Below, piece after piece: positions 160 through 16,450 of a stretch of 64,000 bases of DNA; within the stretch, counting starts at the first letter, position 1; every line of letters begins with the position of its first letter. Made by a program: the position numbers and the translations under genes. This DNA is from Planctomycetota bacterium. Its GTDB lineage: Bacteria; Planctomycetota; Phycisphaerae; WQYP01. The stretch is taken from the NCBI GenBank assembly GCA_021805985.1, contig JAJZDN010000018.1, positions 1-64,000 of the forward strand, in the 5' to 3' direction. A model generated the notes under the pieces. That model searched no databases. It saw only the letters and a list, made by a program, of their open reading frames with translations, and had not been told where the DNA came from.

Positions 160-1728
160 TTACCGATTCAGTTTCAGCAGGAGTGCCAGCAGCTTTTTGG
201 CGCGGGGGGTCAGGCGGGTGCGGTTGAATTTGTCGCCGGCGCGTTTAATTACTTCGGCCTGCGTGGGATAGGGATGAATGACAGAGCCGATTTTTCCCAA
301 TGATACGCCCGCGCACATGGCAACGGTAAGTTCTGAGATTATGTCACCGGCATGATTGGCCACCAGCGTGGCCCCAAGAATGCGGCCGGTCTTTTTTTGC
401 ACATGCACCTTGAGAAATCCCTCGGTTTGCGCATCCAAAACCGCACGGTCCACCTCCTCAAGGCCAACCATGATGGTTTCCATGGCGATGCCTTTGGCCT
501 CTGCCTCGGCGGGATACAGCCCGACATGCGCTATCTCGGGTTCCGTATACGTGCACCAGGGAATTGTCAGAGCACTAACTTTTTTTCTTCCAAAAAACAA
601 GGCGTTCTGTATGACAATTCGCGCCATGGCATCGGCGGTGTGGGTGAATTTACTGGGAAAGCAGATATCTCCGGCGGCAAATATTCGGCGATTGGTGGTG
701 CGCAGGTGATCATCCACATGGACCCCGGACCTTGCATCATACCGAACCCCGGCGGCCTCAAGATTCAGATGTTCTATATTAGGTGCCCGGCCAACAGCGA
801 TGAGTATTTCATCAAATGCCTGAATGGTGGAGCTATCCGAACCTTCAAGTGTCAGAAGTTTTTCGGAACCTTGCCGCGCTATATTCGTGATGCGGCAATC
901 GCGGTTGATCTGCACGCCGTCGTTAAGTAGTGCGCGTTCTATCACCGCAGCCGCATCGCGATCTTCGCGAACCAGCAATTGCTTTTGCTGTTCAAACAGC
1001 GTGACCTTGGAGCCAAAGCGGGCAAACGCCTGCGCCAGTTCACAGCCGATGGGTCCTGCTCCAATTACGGCCAGTCGGGGCGGCAGCGTCGTGAGCGAAA
1101 AGATGGTTTCGTTGGTCAGATAGCCGGCGTCCCGGATTCCCGGAATTGGAAGTTCAACCGCCCGGGCACCCGTGGCGATAACCGCTTTGGCAAAACGCAG
1201 TTGTTGGGTGCCCACATTAATGCCAGTGCCGCTGTTAAAGACGCCTTGGCCAAAAAACAGATCCACATTCAAGCCTTGAAATCGCCGGGCGGAATCGTGA
1301 TGGCTGATGCCCGCTCGCAATTTCCGCATGCGTTCCATGATGGCGGGAAAATCGGTGCTGATAGGGCCATTAAGCAAAACGCCATACGCTCCGCTACGTC
1401 GCACTTCCGCACATACGCGGGCCGCACGAATCAGCGCTTTGGATGGCACACACCCTACATTCAGGCAGTCACCGCCCATTAAATCTTTTTCAATCAGGGC
1501 GACGCTGGCCCCCAACCCCGCTGCCCCGGCAGCGGTTACCAGCCCTGCGGTGCCCGCACCAATTACCACCAGATCATAGCGCGGCTTGGGTTCCGGATTT
1601 TGCCAGTCCGACGGATGAACATTGGCCGCCAGTTCGCGGTTATGCTGATCAAAAGGTTTTAGAGCCGATATTAAGTCTGTTGCTGGGTTATCCACGCGGG
1701 CAGGTCCTTTCTCAGGGGCGGTTGGCAA
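160..1728 (-). CDS. Mercuric-reductase-like FAD/NAD(P) disulfide oxidoreductase
   Basis: A class I flavin disulfide oxidoreductase of 522 aa. The FAD-binding GAGTAG lies at residues 57-62, the redox cysteines C88 and C93 in GGDCLNVGCVPSK, the second nucleotide-binding GAGPIG at 223-228, and the C-terminal dimerisation domain carries HPYPTQAE from residue 485, which supplies the family's catalytic His-Glu. It lacks the N-terminal mercury-binding HMA domain and the C-terminal cysteine pair of true MerA, so Hg(II) reduction is not supported; the substrate is unknown. About 50 residues precede the FAD domain. It is the last gene of the - strand arsenosugar cluster, and its ATG overlaps the end of the preceding ORF by 17 nt, which suggests coupled translation. 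Flavoproteins of this type often neighbour arsM/arsS, which points to a role in organoarsenical redox chemistry (inference). Confidence 0.88.
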   Translation of the reverse strand: MPTAPEKGPARVDNPATDLISALKPFDQHNRELAANVHPSDWQNPEPKPRYDLVVIGAGTAGLVTAAGAAGLGASVALIEKDLMGGDCLNVGCVPSKALIRAARVCAEVRRSGAYGVLLNGPISTDFPAIMERMRKLRAGISHHDSARRFQGLNVDLFFGQGVFNSGTGINVGTQQLRFAKAVIATGARAVELPIPGIRDAGYLTNETIFSLTTLPPRLAVIGAGPIGCELAQAFARFGSKVTLFEQQKQLLVREDRDAAAVIERALLNDGVQINRDCRITNIARQGSEKLLTLEGSDSSTIQAFDEILIAVGRAPNIEHLNLEAAGVRYDARSGVHVDDHLRTTNRRIFAAGDICFPSKFTHTADAMARIVIQNALFFGRKKVSALTIPWCTYTEPEIAHVGLYPAEAEAKGIAMETIMVGLEEVDRAVLDAQTEGFLKVHVQKKTGRILGATLVANHAGDIISELTVAMCAGVSLGKIGSVIHPYPTQAEVIKRAGDKFNRTRLTPRAKKLLALLLKLNR

Positions 1729-3316
1729 GGCTGTCGAGCTTCCAACTGTAATTTTTAAAAGTCACCGAGGGTGGATTGCCGGCGGCTAAATCCGCAGCGA
1801 CACGCTTATTAAACTTGGCGACGAACTTTCGTACGGAACCTGCCGCCTGACTGAAATCACCGGAGTACCAGTCATACAACATTGTCAGATGCAGGGTTTT
1901 TCCATTCCTGGACAATCTGACCCAGCGGGGATTGTTGTTGACGAATTCCGCCTGACTTTGAAGTTGGGCATTGATTCTTGCCGCTTCATAAGCTTTCTGG
2001 CGTAAGGGAGGACAGCCGATGGACGCACAATTGATGGCAAAGTGAACCCGCGGATCGGCAAAATCGCTGCGAAGCATCAGTTCAATCTGGTTCAGGCTGT
2101 AACGTTTTCCGCCGATGTCCCAATGCACATAATCCCAGCGCTTGGCTGCTGGAATATCACGAATAGACTGGATATTCGGGTAGTGATTTAGAATCAGCCG
2201 CAGTGTGAAGGCGTTATACGCATTGATCAAGAGCGCCAGTTTATTATTCCGCCCCAGGCTATTGAACGGGGCTTTTGCAAGTTGGGCGATATAGGCGTTA
2301 AGGTTTGCGGGATTGGCCGCCAGAGAGGGGTAATCAACCCAGCCGCCGGTGTGCACATATTTGGATACAACCTGGGTAAACATGGCATTGCTGAACTGTG
2401 GACCGGCGGGATTGGACTTAAATTTGTTGGCCAATTTGACTGGCGGCGGCCCGAAAATCCCCGCCAGCGGACCGCGGTTAATCCAGGTACAGGCAGTTAA
2501 ACCCAGCATCACAATTGCCAATCCTGCCAGTATCACCGGACGCCGCGAACGCGTGGCAACTGCTGAGGAACCGTTTTCCAGTGGCTTATTCATTTCGATC
2601 ACTCCTGATTCTGCAGCCAAAGCGCGGCTGGCCAATTTTGTTATATAAACACTTACCGCAACAATCAGCAGCAAGCCCACGCCAATAAGCACCCAATGCA
2701 GCAAACCGTTGTCCTTCACCCCGCCCGCGCCTGCCGCCTGACTGGCCGCATACCCCAGATACACATACAAAAGCGTTCCCGGTAGCATACACAGCCAGCT
2801 CACCAATACATACGGTAAAAAGCGGATAGCGGTTAATCCGAAGAAATAATTGCTTAAATTAAATGGCACCACCGGCGAGAGCCGCAGCAGGGCGACAATT
2901 TTCCATCCATTTTTACCAATTGCCCGATCAATGGCGGCAAATTTTGGCGTTTTCGCCGTAGTCTTTTCCACCGCCGATCTAAACACCCACCGCCCCAGTA
3001 AGTACGCCGCCGCAGCGCCCAGCGTGGCACCGACGGAAACGATCATCGTGCCCCACCACGGCCCATACAGCACACCGGCCAGAAGTGTCAGGGCAGAACC
3101 CGGAATCAACAGAACTGTGGCGACAATGTAAATAACAATATACGCTGCAATTCCCAGCGCCCCCTGGCCGGCCAGCCAACTCTGCAGACGGGCAAGTCCC
3201 ACGCCTATGGGAATAACACGAAATATGACGATCAGACACGCGATAATAATCAGCAGCGAGATAACCTCAAGGCCGCGTGTCAGCTTCTCTGATGAGGGGG
3301 AAGTTTGGTCATTCAT
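1712..3316 (-). CDS. TVP38/TMEM64 membrane protein fused to DUF547 lipoprotein
   Basis: A single 534-aa open frame with two modules. Residues 1-240 are a polytopic TVP38/TMEM64 (DedA-like) domain with the family's GxxxG-rich core and FNLSNYFFG loop. From Met242 a new protein appears to begin: a basic n-region, a hydrophobic stretch ending in the lipobox GLTAC (C276), then a DUF547 domain to the end (LLINAYNAFTLR, HFAINCASIGCPPL). The internal ATG at 2593 has AGGAG 8 nt upstream, so a separate DUF547 lipoprotein could be made from within the ORF. In related arsenosugar clusters TVP38 and DUF547 are usually described as neighbouring genes, so this is either a true fusion or two genes whose separating stop is absent. 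The role in arsenic metabolism is inferred from context only. Confidence 0.85.
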   Translation of the reverse strand: MNDQTSPSSEKLTRGLEVISLLIIIACLIVIFRVIPIGVGLARLQSWLAGQGALGIAAYIVIYIVATVLLIPGSALTLLAGVLYGPWWGTMIVSVGATLGAAAAYLLGRWVFRSAVEKTTAKTPKFAAIDRAIGKNGWKIVALLRLSPVVPFNLSNYFFGLTAIRFLPYVLVSWLCMLPGTLLYVYLGYAASQAAGAGGVKDNGLLHWVLIGVGLLLIVAVSVYITKLASRALAAESGVIEMNKPLENGSSAVATRSRRPVILAGLAIVMLGLTACTWINRGPLAGIFGPPPVKLANKFKSNPAGPQFSNAMFTQVVSKYVHTGGWVDYPSLAANPANLNAYIAQLAKAPFNSLGRNNKLALLINAYNAFTLRLILNHYPNIQSIRDIPAAKRWDYVHWDIGGKRYSLNQIELMLRSDFADPRVHFAINCASIGCPPLRQKAYEAARINAQLQSQAEFVNNNPRWVRLSRNGKTLHLTMLYDWYSGDFSQAAGSVRKFVAKFNKRVAADLAAGNPPSVTFKNYSWKLDSLANRP

Positions 3317-3451
3317 ATGCGTTGCTCATTATTCTTAAACCGTCTTGCAATCACTTAGGTTTAGTCGCCTGCACAAAGAATATCTTACATCCCGCGTCCA
3401 TTATATGCAGGGCGGCATGCCCAGCACCGAGTTATCCTGTTTACCCCGGAA

Positions 3452-3594
3452 GGCGGTCCGAGTAATTGTCGGGTTGCGAGAGCGTGATTTTTGGCCGCTT
3501 GAGGGTGCATCGCGTCATTGAGCACCGTGGTGATAACCCGGTGGTCGGTTCGCGGCACTGGATCAGCCATCGGATTATCATCCGGTGCTCTACC
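3452..3594. repeat. Interspersed palindromic repeat, copy A
   Basis: About 140 bp that closely match the sequence at 45388-45528: both contain GTCCGAGTAAT, GCGTGATTTTTGGC, and a hairpin unit. The hairpin arms are GAGCACCGTGGTGATAACCC...GGT (3520-3545) and its near-complement ending in CATCCGGTGCTC (3567-3590). It fills most of the 338-bp gap between arsS and the TVP38/DUF547 gene. No transposase is nearby. The - strand frames across it are open but look like shadows of the palindrome. Confidence 0.75.
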
Positions 3595-3654
3595 CACCAC
3601 GGGCGCAAGGGTTGTGATCGCAATTCAGGCAACAAAATTCTGGTCCTGACGCCT

Positions 3655-4674
3655 TTACGCCGTTGCGCCCTGCACGTTTTGACCGGCTTGGGCGTCGCCG
3701 GCCACCAGGCTGCCGCCACAGGATGATCCGGCGCCAGCGGTGCAGCCGAAGCAATGGGCACCGGTGGCGATTTGGCGCGTTAGAAAAGCGGCGGGATCAA
3801 AATCACGGATATGGCCTGCGTTGGCTGGCAATTTCAGGGCGTAGTTGAAATCACAATCGTAAAGGGTGCCGTCCCAGCCCACATGCAACTGATGGCGGCA
3901 CATAAGTTCATTGAGTGTGGAAGCATTAAAAGTGCGTTCCAGCAGGTCCTGATATTTTTCGGCGTAACCCTGACGCTGTAAATCATGCTGAAAGCGCCCT
4001 ATGGGCAGGTTGGTAATGGTGTAAAGCTTCGTAAAGCGTATGCCGAAATGCGTGCCAAGCTCCTTGCGGTACGCCGCCTCCAGGGCTGATTGCTCTGGCG
4101 GCAGAGAGGGGCCGCCGGGGTTATACACCAGATCCAGTGCCAGATCATCGCGCGATCCATATCCCAGGGCATTGAGGCGCTGAATAATCGCCACGCTTTC
4201 CTGGTAAACATGTTTGCCCCGCTGCCGATCAACATTGGTTTCCAGATAACAGGGCAGAGATGCCACCAGATGCACACGACGATGCGCATAAAATTCAGGT
4301 AAATCGGTAAAGCCCTCTTCCAGCATGATGGTCAGATTGGTGCGAACCATCACGTCGAACCCCTGCGCGATCGCGGAATCGACAAATCGCCGAAAATTCG
4401 GGTTCATTTCCGGCGCTCCACCGGTTATATCAATGGTTGCGGCGTGGGCTTTTATCGCAGCCTTGAGCACCAGTTCCATGGTTTCCCAGGTCATTTCCTC
4501 AGTGCGCTTAGGAGAGGATTCAACATGGCAATGATGGCAAGCCAGATTGCATTTTAAGCCCACGTTCACCTGCACCGTGCGGATACTTAACCCCGTAAAT
4601 TCCCCTGCACCCGCAGCGCGCAGGCGCTGGTCGAAGTGATTTTCCGGAGGTGTGTTGAGAATCGACAAATTCAT
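3655..4674 (-). CDS. arsS: Arsenosugar biosynthesis radical SAM protein ArsS
   Basis: A radical SAM enzyme of 339 aa. The CxxxCxxC cluster motif is C42-C46-C49 in CNLACHHCH; the C-terminal DUF3641/SPASM-like part has GCTAGAGSSCGG near residues 309-320, as in the ArsS family. ArsS is proposed to attach a 5'-deoxyadenosyl group to dimethylarsenic, the step leading to arsenosugars. The start ATG has AAAGGAT upstream. arsM ends 58 nt upstream on the same strand, the arrangement typical of arsenosugar operons. Length and motifs are complete. Confidence 0.93.
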   Translation of the reverse strand: MNLSILNTPPENHFDQRLRAAGAGEFTGLSIRTVQVNVGLKCNLACHHCHVESSPKRTEEMTWETMELVLKAAIKAHAATIDITGGAPEMNPNFRRFVDSAIAQGFDVMVRTNLTIMLEEGFTDLPEFYAHRRVHLVASLPCYLETNVDRQRGKHVYQESVAIIQRLNALGYGSRDDLALDLVYNPGGPSLPPEQSALEAAYRKELGTHFGIRFTKLYTITNLPIGRFQHDLQRQGYAEKYQDLLERTFNASTLNELMCRHQLHVGWDGTLYDCDFNYALKLPANAGHIRDFDPAAFLTRQIATGAHCFGCTAGAGSSCGGSLVAGDAQAGQNVQGATA

Positions 4675-4732: not shown

Positions 4733-5899
4733 TCAGCAGCAGCCATCGGTGGTGCATGAAGACGAGACGTCGGTTGTGGCGTTGTAATCCAGGCCTTTAG
4801 TCTGCCGCGGATTGCGAATCGCAGCGCCTTTGCACCCAAAAGGCAGTGCATCGGCCACTGGAACTTCCTGCCGGGGTTGAATACCAAATATGTCTCTGGC
4901 ATACGGCCCATCTGAATTTGTCATGATGCGGAATGTCTTGTCACAAACCGCCATGCGTTTGGCTCGGACAAACACGTGTCCGTCATCATCCACCACCTGC
5001 TTCCAGGGTCCAGCGTAAATCAGGGCCTGATTGCGTTCCAGGCATGGCCCCTGCTTACCCTTGTGGGCTACCACAGTAACGCTGCGAAATTCAATGCCAT
5101 TGACGGTCCGCCAGGGAACCGAATCCCGTTTGGCCAATTGAATTCCAAAGAATCCGGCCCGCTCAAAAGCTTCCACGAAAGCATCCTCACGCCAGGCCCC
5201 GCTGATGCACCCCGACCATAACTGCGGATCATTCTGCAGGTCTTCCGGGACATCCTCATCACTGACAATATCGCTGATGGCAACACGCCCGCCCATTCGC
5301 AAAACCCGGAACATTTCCGCAAACAACCGCGCCTTGTCTCCGGGTCGAACCAGATTCAGCACACAGTTGGAGACAATTACATCCACCGATTCATCCGCCA
5401 CCAGCGGCTGTTGCCGGCGCTGTATTTCCTGATGCGCCTGCAAAGCCTGCAATTCCGCGATCCCGGTCACAGGATTTTTGCGCAAAAAAGTTTCGGTATC
5501 AGCAAGATCCAATTGCAAATCCTGAATCATGCCCTTGCGAAACTCGATATTGTCATACCCCATGGCTTGGGCCACGGCAGCCTTATTCCCCCCGGCCAGC
5601 GCCAGCATATCATCATTCATATCGACGCCGATAACCCGTCCCTGCGCCCCCACCACCTGCGCTGCTATAAAGCAAATCTTGCCGCCGCCGGAGCCTAAGT
5701 CAAGGACGGTATCACCTGAGCGGAGAAATTGTGAGGGATCACCGCAACCGTAATCGCGGTCCAGAACTTCCTGGGGAATTATCTTCAGATATTTTGGATC
5801 ATAGGACACAGGGCAGCAAAGGCTTTCCTGTCTTTCCAGTGCCGCCTGGGAATACGTGCGTTTCACTGACTGCTCGACACTGGGGATGGTAACGGACAT
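4733..5899 (-). CDS. arsM: Arsenite methyltransferase ArsM (arsenosugar type)
   Basis: An S-adenosylmethionine-dependent As(III) methyltransferase of 388 aa. The SAM site is LDLGSGGG (66-73) with the acidic GVDMND loop near 91-96. The conserved arsenic-binding cysteines can be placed: C28/C29 in SLCCPVSYD, C179 in SNCVLNL and C231 in SGCISGAW. A C-terminal extension beyond the methyltransferase fold ends in a cysteine-rich tail (SSSCTTDGCC), as in ArsM proteins paired with ArsS. It methylates arsenite in the cytoplasm to mono- and dimethylarsenic, the substrate for the neighbouring ArsS. The MFS gene ends about 30 nt upstream, so it is likely cotranscribed. Confidence 0.93.
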   Translation of the reverse strand: MSVTIPSVEQSVKRTYSQAALERQESLCCPVSYDPKYLKIIPQEVLDRDYGCGDPSQFLRSGDTVLDLGSGGGKICFIAAQVVGAQGRVIGVDMNDDMLALAGGNKAAVAQAMGYDNIEFRKGMIQDLQLDLADTETFLRKNPVTGIAELQALQAHQEIQRRQQPLVADESVDVIVSNCVLNLVRPGDKARLFAEMFRVLRMGGRVAISDIVSDEDVPEDLQNDPQLWSGCISGAWREDAFVEAFERAGFFGIQLAKRDSVPWRTVNGIEFRSVTVVAHKGKQGPCLERNQALIYAGPWKQVVDDDGHVFVRAKRMAVCDKTFRIMTNSDGPYARDIFGIQPRQEVPVADALPFGCKGAAIRNPRQTKGLDYNATTDVSSSCTTDGCC

Positions 5900-7710: not shown

Positions 7711-7977
7711 TCAGCGAATCAACTTTTTGAGCCTTTTACGAGCCTCGGGCGAAAGCGCGTCATTTTCTGAGGTTTTGGTGCCGGCATTGAGGAAGGCCAA
7801 TTGGCGGGCGGCCTTGTCCATCAAAGCAAATTGCCGATCCATCAATCTGCAGCCCGCGCAAATAATAAGATGCACCGCAAGGGTTGCGCGATCCCAGTGG
7901 CTTAACTGCCCGTCGCGCCGGCGGCAGGACATTTCCGCAGCCGCCCGGCAATTCAATATTTTTGGAAGTTTTAACAT
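7711..7977 (-). CDS. Zinc-finger anti-sigma factor
   Basis: A small protein of 88 aa. It carries the HxxxCxxC motif of zinc-dependent anti-sigma domains (zf-HC2/ZAS) as H36-L-I-I-C-A-G-C43, with an upstream cysteine in MSCRRRDG. No transmembrane helix follows, so this is a soluble anti-sigma factor. It starts 3 nt after the stop of the ECF sigma gene, the normal order for a sigma/anti-sigma pair, and presumably holds that sigma inactive until a signal, perhaps arsenic or redox stress acting on the zinc thiols (inference). Confidence 0.82.
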   Translation of the reverse strand: MLKLPKILNCRAAAEMSCRRRDGQLSHWDRATLAVHLIICAGCRLMDRQFALMDKAARQLAFLNAGTKTSENDALSPEARKRLKKLIR

Positions 7978-7980
7978 CGG

Positions 7981-8628
7981 TTAATCCTTCACCGCGCCTA
8001 CCTGCCCGATACCTTTTTTTTCCAGGCAATCCCGCAACCGCAGACGCGCACGATGTAGCAACACGTAGAGGTTCGTCGAACTGACGCTTAACGTCTTACA
8101 CACCACGTCAGAATTCTGTTCATCCATAACGCTTAAAACAAATGCCTTCCGCTGTGCTTCCGGCAGCGCCTCCATGCAGCGCTGCAGCATTGGCAATACC
8201 TCTGATTCCATGGCCGAATCTTCCGGATTTACATGCCAGCGGCGCGGAAATTTTTTCCACTTTCCGAAACGCGAAAACATCCCGTCCACTACTTGATCGT
8301 CGGGAAGCGTGTCCGCTGCATCACGCTCCTGCCGGCGGAAATGGTCTGTAATTTTGTGTTTTAAGATACCTACCAGCCAGGTGGAGAATTCACACTGGCC
8401 TTTGAAGTTCTCTTTTCCCTTCAAGGCGGCAAGAAATGTTTCCTGCACCAACTCTTCGCAATTGGCCCGGTCCGCCACGCGCAATCTCGCATAGCGGAAG
8501 AGCAGATCGCCATACTGATCCACCCACAATTCCGCCGAGGGACATTTATCCGCCCGCCGCTGATCCAATTGTGTTGCCTCGCCAATACCCAAAGGTTGCT
8601 CCAAAATACGGCCGGTGATTCTATTCAT
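7981..8628 (-). CDS. ECF RNA polymerase sigma factor
   Basis: A 215-aa sigma-70 family factor. Region 2 spans about residues 34-103 (CEELVQETFLAAL, STWLVGILKHKITDHFRR) and region 4 about 145-205 (ALPEAQRKAFVLSVMDE, VLLHRARLRLRDCL); between them lies a longer linker than usual. Its ATG overlaps the TGA of the upstream lipoprotein frame (TGATG), and the anti-sigma gene follows 3 nt after its stop. The context suggests that it drives the arsenosugar genes downstream. Confidence 0.92.
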   Translation of the reverse strand: MNRITGRILEQPLGIGEATQLDQRRADKCPSAELWVDQYGDLLFRYARLRVADRANCEELVQETFLAALKGKENFKGQCEFSTWLVGILKHKITDHFRRQERDAADTLPDDQVVDGMFSRFGKWKKFPRRWHVNPEDSAMESEVLPMLQRCMEALPEAQRKAFVLSVMDEQNSDVVCKTLSVSSTNLYVLLHRARLRLRDCLEKKGIGQVGAVKD

Positions 8629-15973: not shown

Positions 15974-16174
15974 CGAACACTCCTTAAATTATCCGCTTCC
16001 GCGGTACTGTAAACCGATCTCAAGCCCGTCGGAATACGGGCGCAATACTATTACCTGCCAAAGTCCGCATCAGGTATGCTTACGTATACAACCGCAGCTT
16101 CGCACAGCAACACCGAAAGCAACCCCACCGGGACGGAGCCGAAAACGGGAATGCCGCAAAACAACGGCCCCGCC

Positions 16175-16265
16175 ATCGCTCGCGCTCCCTACGCCGGTAC
16201 AATCCGGGTCAGGTTCCAAGGGTTTATTCTCAGTTCCATTTACTCGGAACACCCCTGGCGAACAG
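16175..16265 (-). promoter_or_regulatory. TPP (THI-box) riboswitch
   Basis: On the - strand the conserved segments occur in order: AGGGGTGTTCCG, GGAACTGAGA, ACCCTTGGAACCTGACCCGG, then ATTGTACCGGCGTAGGGA. These match the thi-box consensus closely. It lies about 200 nt upstream of the thiC start; a GCCCGT-N6-ACGGGC hairpin at about 16024-16041 in the remaining leader may belong to the expression platform. The region from 16266 to 16450 beyond it holds nothing I recognise apart from the presumed promoter. Confidence 0.95.
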
Positions 16266-16450
16266 TGCGGGATTATATCATATCAGTGGTCATGTTACCG
16301 CATTTACGGTGCATCACATATCCGGCGCAGCCTCACGCCGATCAGTTGTATGAATTGTCGGAAGAATCATTTATCTGGTTGACTTTTATTTTAATGCAGA
16401 GCACTCTGTGTTATAGAGCAATACGCCGGGGTTGGCGATTGCAGGATTAA

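Follow-up and report, generated by a model that had tools for sequence, protein, structure and literature searches.

A single open reading frame in the 64,000-nucleotide stretch of DNA analysed here (the window) carries a membrane domain followed by a lipoprotein-like module, with what looks like a second start between them, which raises the question of whether this locus makes one protein or two. The frame runs on the minus strand from ATG at 3316 to TGA at 1712 and encodes 534 residues. An initial annotation had described it as an in-frame joining of TVP38-type and DUF547 modules, and Pfam agreed with this description: VTT_dom (PF09335), which defines the VTT or DedA-TVP38 family, matched residues 71-189 with 108.5 bits against a cut-off of 33.9, and DUF547 (PF04784) matched residues 352-457 with 80.4 bits against a cut-off of 27. 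The coordinates and spacings given there were all found to be correct on re-reading of the sequence (Table 1).

Table 1. Positions of the fused frame, its internal elements and the neighbouring genes in the window
Feature	Position	Strand	Basis
VTT-DUF547 fusion, full-length, 534 aa	1712..3316	minus	open in 45/45 distinct fused loci
VTT (TVP38/DedA-type) domain, residues 71-189	2750..3106	minus	PF09335 match
Mature DUF547 lipoprotein, predicted, 259 aa	1715..2491	minus	PF04784 at ORF residues 352-457
Internal Shine-Dalgarno AGGAG, 8 nt 5' of ATG	2602..2606	minus	conserved including wobble positions in 13-member clade
Internal start codon ATG (Met242)	2591..2593	minus	ATG in 12/13, GTG in 1/13 clade members
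Signal-peptide-like segment of short form, residues 242-275; also last transmembrane helix of full-length form	2492..2593	minus	sequence; helix 259-279 in low-confidence model
Lipobox cysteine Cys276 (LTAC)	2489..2491	minus	L-[AT]-[AT]-C in 13/13 clade members
FAD/NAD disulfide oxidoreductase	160..1695	minus	NF004991, 793.9 bits
ArsS, arsenosugar biosynthesis radical SAM protein	3655..4674	minus	TIGR04167 equivalog, 421.8 bits, cut-off 300
ArsM-like arsenic methyltransferase	4733..5899	minus	NF040538, 354.7 bits, below cut-off 500

The nature of the fusion was examined in overlapping sets of 101 relative, 28 family, 397 class and 392 phylum genomes, from which 45 distinct fused loci were collected. 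The annotation had proposed looking in related arsenosugar clusters for a stop codon between the modules; none was found, the frame being open in all 45 loci. The uninterrupted fusion occurs throughout Planctomycetota, down to 41-47% identity, and related loci in named records belong to Planctomycetota/Phycisphaerae MAGs. An assembly error as its source was ruled out by the presence of the same open frame in many independent assemblies, single-contig genomes among them. The arrangement VTT-stop-DUF547 was not detected in any of the four genome sets, and two loci (L030 and L045) carry VTT, DUF547 and FAD as separate genes in other orders.

We then considered the internal start. The sequence confirmed the claim that Met242 has its own AGGAG: the site at 2606-2602 is separated from ATG242 (2593-2591) by a spacer of 8 nt, TGATCGAA. 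Over the 45 distinct fused frames, a match of at least 5 nt to AGGAGG at proper spacing was present at 14 of 35 in-frame ATGs of the linker against none of 226 elsewhere, indicating that the internal Shine-Dalgarno start exceeds chance, in a Fisher test that ignores phylogeny.

Conservation of the site was followed within a clade of 13 loci in the window's family (ultrafast bootstrap 92, SH-aLRT 87), whose proteins are 65-94% identical to the window's fusion. A conserved Shine-Dalgarno sequence and a start codon lie inside the open frame in every member, the start codon at the homologous place and always 8 nt from the site. AGGAG is exact in 11 of the 13 (L005 has AGGGG and L011 has GGGAG), against 0.67 of 13 expected from each gene's own codon usage, and the one member without ATG (L013) has GTG, another start codon. 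The linker that holds the site is among the most variable stretches of the fusion protein, and the clade pattern is S/T/A/E-G-V/G-x-x-M/V in protein and nnA GGA Gnn nnn nnn ATG in DNA. The glycine of the site is encoded by GGA in 12 of 13 members, whereas in the other conserved glycine columns GGA makes up about 25% of codons on average and never more than 46%. The codon before it likewise has A as its third base in 12 of 13, despite encoding S, T, A or E. On the clade tree, where parsimony counts allow for shared ancestry as the linker-versus-rest count does not, the two wobble positions of AGGAG take one step each, and among 321 adjacent degenerate codon pairs this pair alone has both positions at one step or fewer. 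Even in the four members with extra codons inserted upstream (L009, L010, L013 and L014), site and start remain together. Since AGGAG-N8-start is kept at the nucleotide level while the encoded residues vary, we conclude that selection maintaining an internal ribosome-binding site and initiation is the simplest reading of this pattern.

The translational setting was also inspected. Most clade members show a closer Shine-Dalgarno match at the internal site than ahead of the frame's own N-terminal start, and the short form may for this reason be abundant. Only 9 of 40 ORFs in the window carry a match of at least 5 nt near the 5' end, so Shine-Dalgarno sequences are not heavily relied on in this genome; a 16S gene for checking the anti-Shine-Dalgarno sequence was not found in the window's MAG. 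The mRNA around the internal start is not unusually unstructured, and its openness gives no clear signal; this and the low count of Shine-Dalgarno matches weigh against internal initiation. A search for an internal promoter of a short transcript gave only one weak sigma-70 match (3270-3243), fewer than in shuffled sequences, and that explanation was set aside.

The segment that begins at Met242, RSRRPVILAGLAIVMLGLTAC, closes with the lipobox-like LTAC, in which Cys276 lies at 2491-2489; the signal peptide and lipobox of the initial annotation are thus borne out as 34 signal-peptide-like residues followed by LTAC276. As read from the sequence, the short form has the basic n-region, the hydrophobic segment and the lipobox cysteine of a lipoprotein, MNKPLENGSSAVATRSRRPVILAGLAIVMLGLTAC. 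Genes for Lgt (PF01790) and LspA (PF01252), both above cut-off, are present in the genome. Throughout the clade the +2 residue after the cysteine is S, T or A (13 of 13), and the two forms could be located at separate sites, the lipoprotein possibly going to the outer membrane. The accompanying argument, that a lipobox so deep in a membrane protein has no use unless the internal start is used, is unsound, because lipobox-like cysteines are also present in fusions that lack such a start (L012, L017, L018, L019, L047, L056, L118 and L119); Lgt and LspA might in principle also act on an internal helix of N-in/C-out orientation. Stand-alone relatives of DUF547 with a single N-terminal hydrophobic segment exist as well, some with a lipobox-like cysteine, and two of them (L064 and L115) show the predicted short form to be a viable protein design. 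In one further locus (L063:5911-7173), a DUF547 protein has lost the VTT core but retains what appear to be the outermost VTT helices, the first and the last; some of the stand-alone proteins may thus have arisen from the fusion.

The distribution of these features leads us to conclude that the fusion is old and the internal start younger. The clade's sister, L012, has a lipobox-like cysteine and no site; L015 lacks the cysteine but carries GGAGG ahead of an ATG; and L016 has neither feature. The close relatives L012 and L016 manage without the site, so the family as a whole does not depend on it, a point against the proposal of two products. Outside the window's family, 16 fusions have neither feature and a few have one, while looser Shine-Dalgarno starts together with a lipobox were seen in L058/L060 (TTG) and L116/L117 (GTG). 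The initial annotation had taken a fusion without Shine-Dalgarno and lipobox as evidence against its proposal. Such fusions do occur, both features being absent from 17 other fusions, and the fusion can evidently do without an internal start; this is no evidence of an idle start in the loci that conserve it. Gain of the internal start within the family is the most economical history, the alternative being an older origin with losses. Possible independent internal starts were noted in other linkers, with a strong Shine-Dalgarno sequence before ATG and no lipobox cysteine in L054, L055 and L015, and before TTG or GTG with a lipobox cysteine in L058, L060, L116 and L117.

Taken as a whole, the reading that we favour, with a probability of roughly three in four, is that a long-established VTT-DUF547 fusion, encoded in an ArsS operon, was provided, in one Phycisphaerae lineage, with a second ribosome-binding site that yields a free DUF547 lipoprotein too; both this lipoprotein and the full-length protein are probably made. 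Ribosomes starting at 3316 would give a polytopic protein of VTT helices, a cytoplasmic linker and one further helix, with DUF547 in the periplasm. Those starting at Met242 would give a 293-residue DUF547 precursor with a signal peptide ending in LTAC, and Lgt and LspA would convert it to the free lipoprotein. From these features we infer internal initiation, lipidation of Cys276 and the topology, and likewise the benefit, which would be extra DUF547 untethered from the VTT domain. Whether this amounts to a translational fission of the gene, in which the ancient fusion gained a ribosome-binding site and a lipobox and so regained a free lipid-anchored DUF547 while keeping the membrane-tethered fusion, we regard as evenly balanced.

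Other accounts of the site differ in what they leave unexplained. If the fusion were the sole translation product, Lgt and LspA might cut it at the internal lipobox after membrane insertion, separating a VTT protein from a free lipoprotein; the helix before Cys276 would have the orientation of a signal peptide if the linker is cytoplasmic, both enzymes are encoded in the genome, and lipobox-like cysteines occur in fusions without the internal start. Many fusions, however, have no cysteine there, and cleavage of this kind does not account for the nucleotide-level conservation of AGGAG-N8-ATG/GTG. We consider it unlikely as a replacement for internal initiation, alongside which it could operate. 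It is quite improbable that the conservation reflects mere chance or shared ancestry around a functionless site: the 13 loci are related members of one clade and the linker comparison takes no account of phylogeny, but the tree-based parsimony counts, which do, still single out both wobble positions. A programmed pause, with AGGAG slowing ribosomes between the modules to aid membrane insertion and starting nothing, would suit the position of the site between two membrane segments of the low-confidence model. It is very improbable in view of the constant 8-nt coupling to a start codon, the replacement of ATG by GTG alone, and the upstream insertions that never split site from start.

The initial annotation had left two alternatives, a fusion accompanied by a free lipoprotein or a pair of neighbouring genes that had just lost the stop between them. 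The former gains support from AGGAG-N8-start kept throughout the 13-member clade. The latter, in which the start would be a relic, recalls the separate VTT, DUF547 and FAD genes of L030 and L045, but it is rejected, and we give it hardly any credence, because the fusion is deep and phylum-wide with the frame open in 45/45 loci. Most fusions, moreover, lack the start, which the tree reads as gained later or as a trait of the family, and a relic would not keep its wobble positions in a clade of 65-94% identity to the window's protein.

Internal initiation of this kind has precedents. AerR of Rhodobacter capsulatus is made as long and short isoforms by in-frame internal initiation at a GGAG-type site inside the coding region, and the short form was eliminated there by silently altering a GGA codon of that site (PMC6199135). 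An in-frame internal start yielding a C-terminal isoform is likewise predicted here from sequence; unlike AerR, a soluble photoreceptor with a CTG start whose short form lacks only 40 residues, the predicted short form would stand on its own as a lipoprotein module. For SpaO of type III secretion, the C-terminal domain (SpaO-short) is made separately from an internal GTG conserved across relatives (PMC13059759). The conserved start proposed for the C-terminal part of the fusion resembles this arrangement, but both SpaO forms are cytosolic and belong to one complex, whereas the present forms would differ in membrane anchoring.

On the same strand, the fusion is preceded by genes for ArsS, the ArsM-like methyltransferase and an MFS transporter and followed by the FAD/NAD disulfide oxidoreductase, and many related loci have the usual order ArsM, ArsS, VTT-DUF547 and FAD oxidoreductase. 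ArsS, scoring above the TIGR04167 cut-off, points to an arsenosugar cluster. The methyltransferase is only ArsM-like, falling below the cut-off of NF040538 and, with 134.1 bits against 400, of the arsenosugar-specific model NF038099, and the product of the operon is therefore not certain. The FAD oxidoreductase probably starts at GTG (1695-1693), 16 nt past the stop of the fusion and conserved as a start in L002 and L003, not at TTG 1728, which overlaps the fusion. The gap between ArsS and the fusion (3317-3654) is 338 nt, the two being much closer in several relatives, and no RNA family was found in it. Among related loci, two family members appear to have ArsS fused in frame behind a metallophosphoesterase-like domain, as judged by eye, in 658-residue frames (L092:2885-4858 and L096:6881-8854). 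Elsewhere on the minus strand of the window, a sigma-70-family (ECF-like) sigma factor and an anti-sigma-like protein lie upstream of the arsenic genes (7711-8628), and a TPP riboswitch (Rfam RF00059, 65.5 bits) lies at 16168-16266.

As to the function of the modules, AlphaFold models were of low confidence (mean pLDDT 57.5 and 50.4), one of them placing a helix at residues 259-279. No significant PDB fold match was obtained with these low-confidence DUF547 models, no PDB sequence match was found for DUF547, and a literature search returned nothing functional on bacterial DUF547. Fusions of COG0398 DedA/TVP38 proteins to pyridine nucleotide-disulfide oxidoreductases (PF07992/PF02852) have been described (PMC10127716). 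The fusion partner of the window's VTT domain is instead DUF547; VTT and oxidoreductase are neighbours here, and in one locus adjoining ArsS (L069:5209-7905) they are joined in frame, with no DUF547, in 899 residues. The FAD neighbour and this VTT-FAD fusion fit the known fusions. A VTT domain of COG0398 type, a putative assignment for the window's, would suggest lipid or membrane transport beside a redox enzyme.

If the favoured reading is true, routine annotation of this gene as a single fused product conceals another protein with a different anchor, and a domain fusion has been partly undone by an added start, not by an added stop. VTT and DUF547, two poorly understood families, are tied to the ArsS operon across the phylum, and their role in organoarsenic chemistry or transport becomes testable.
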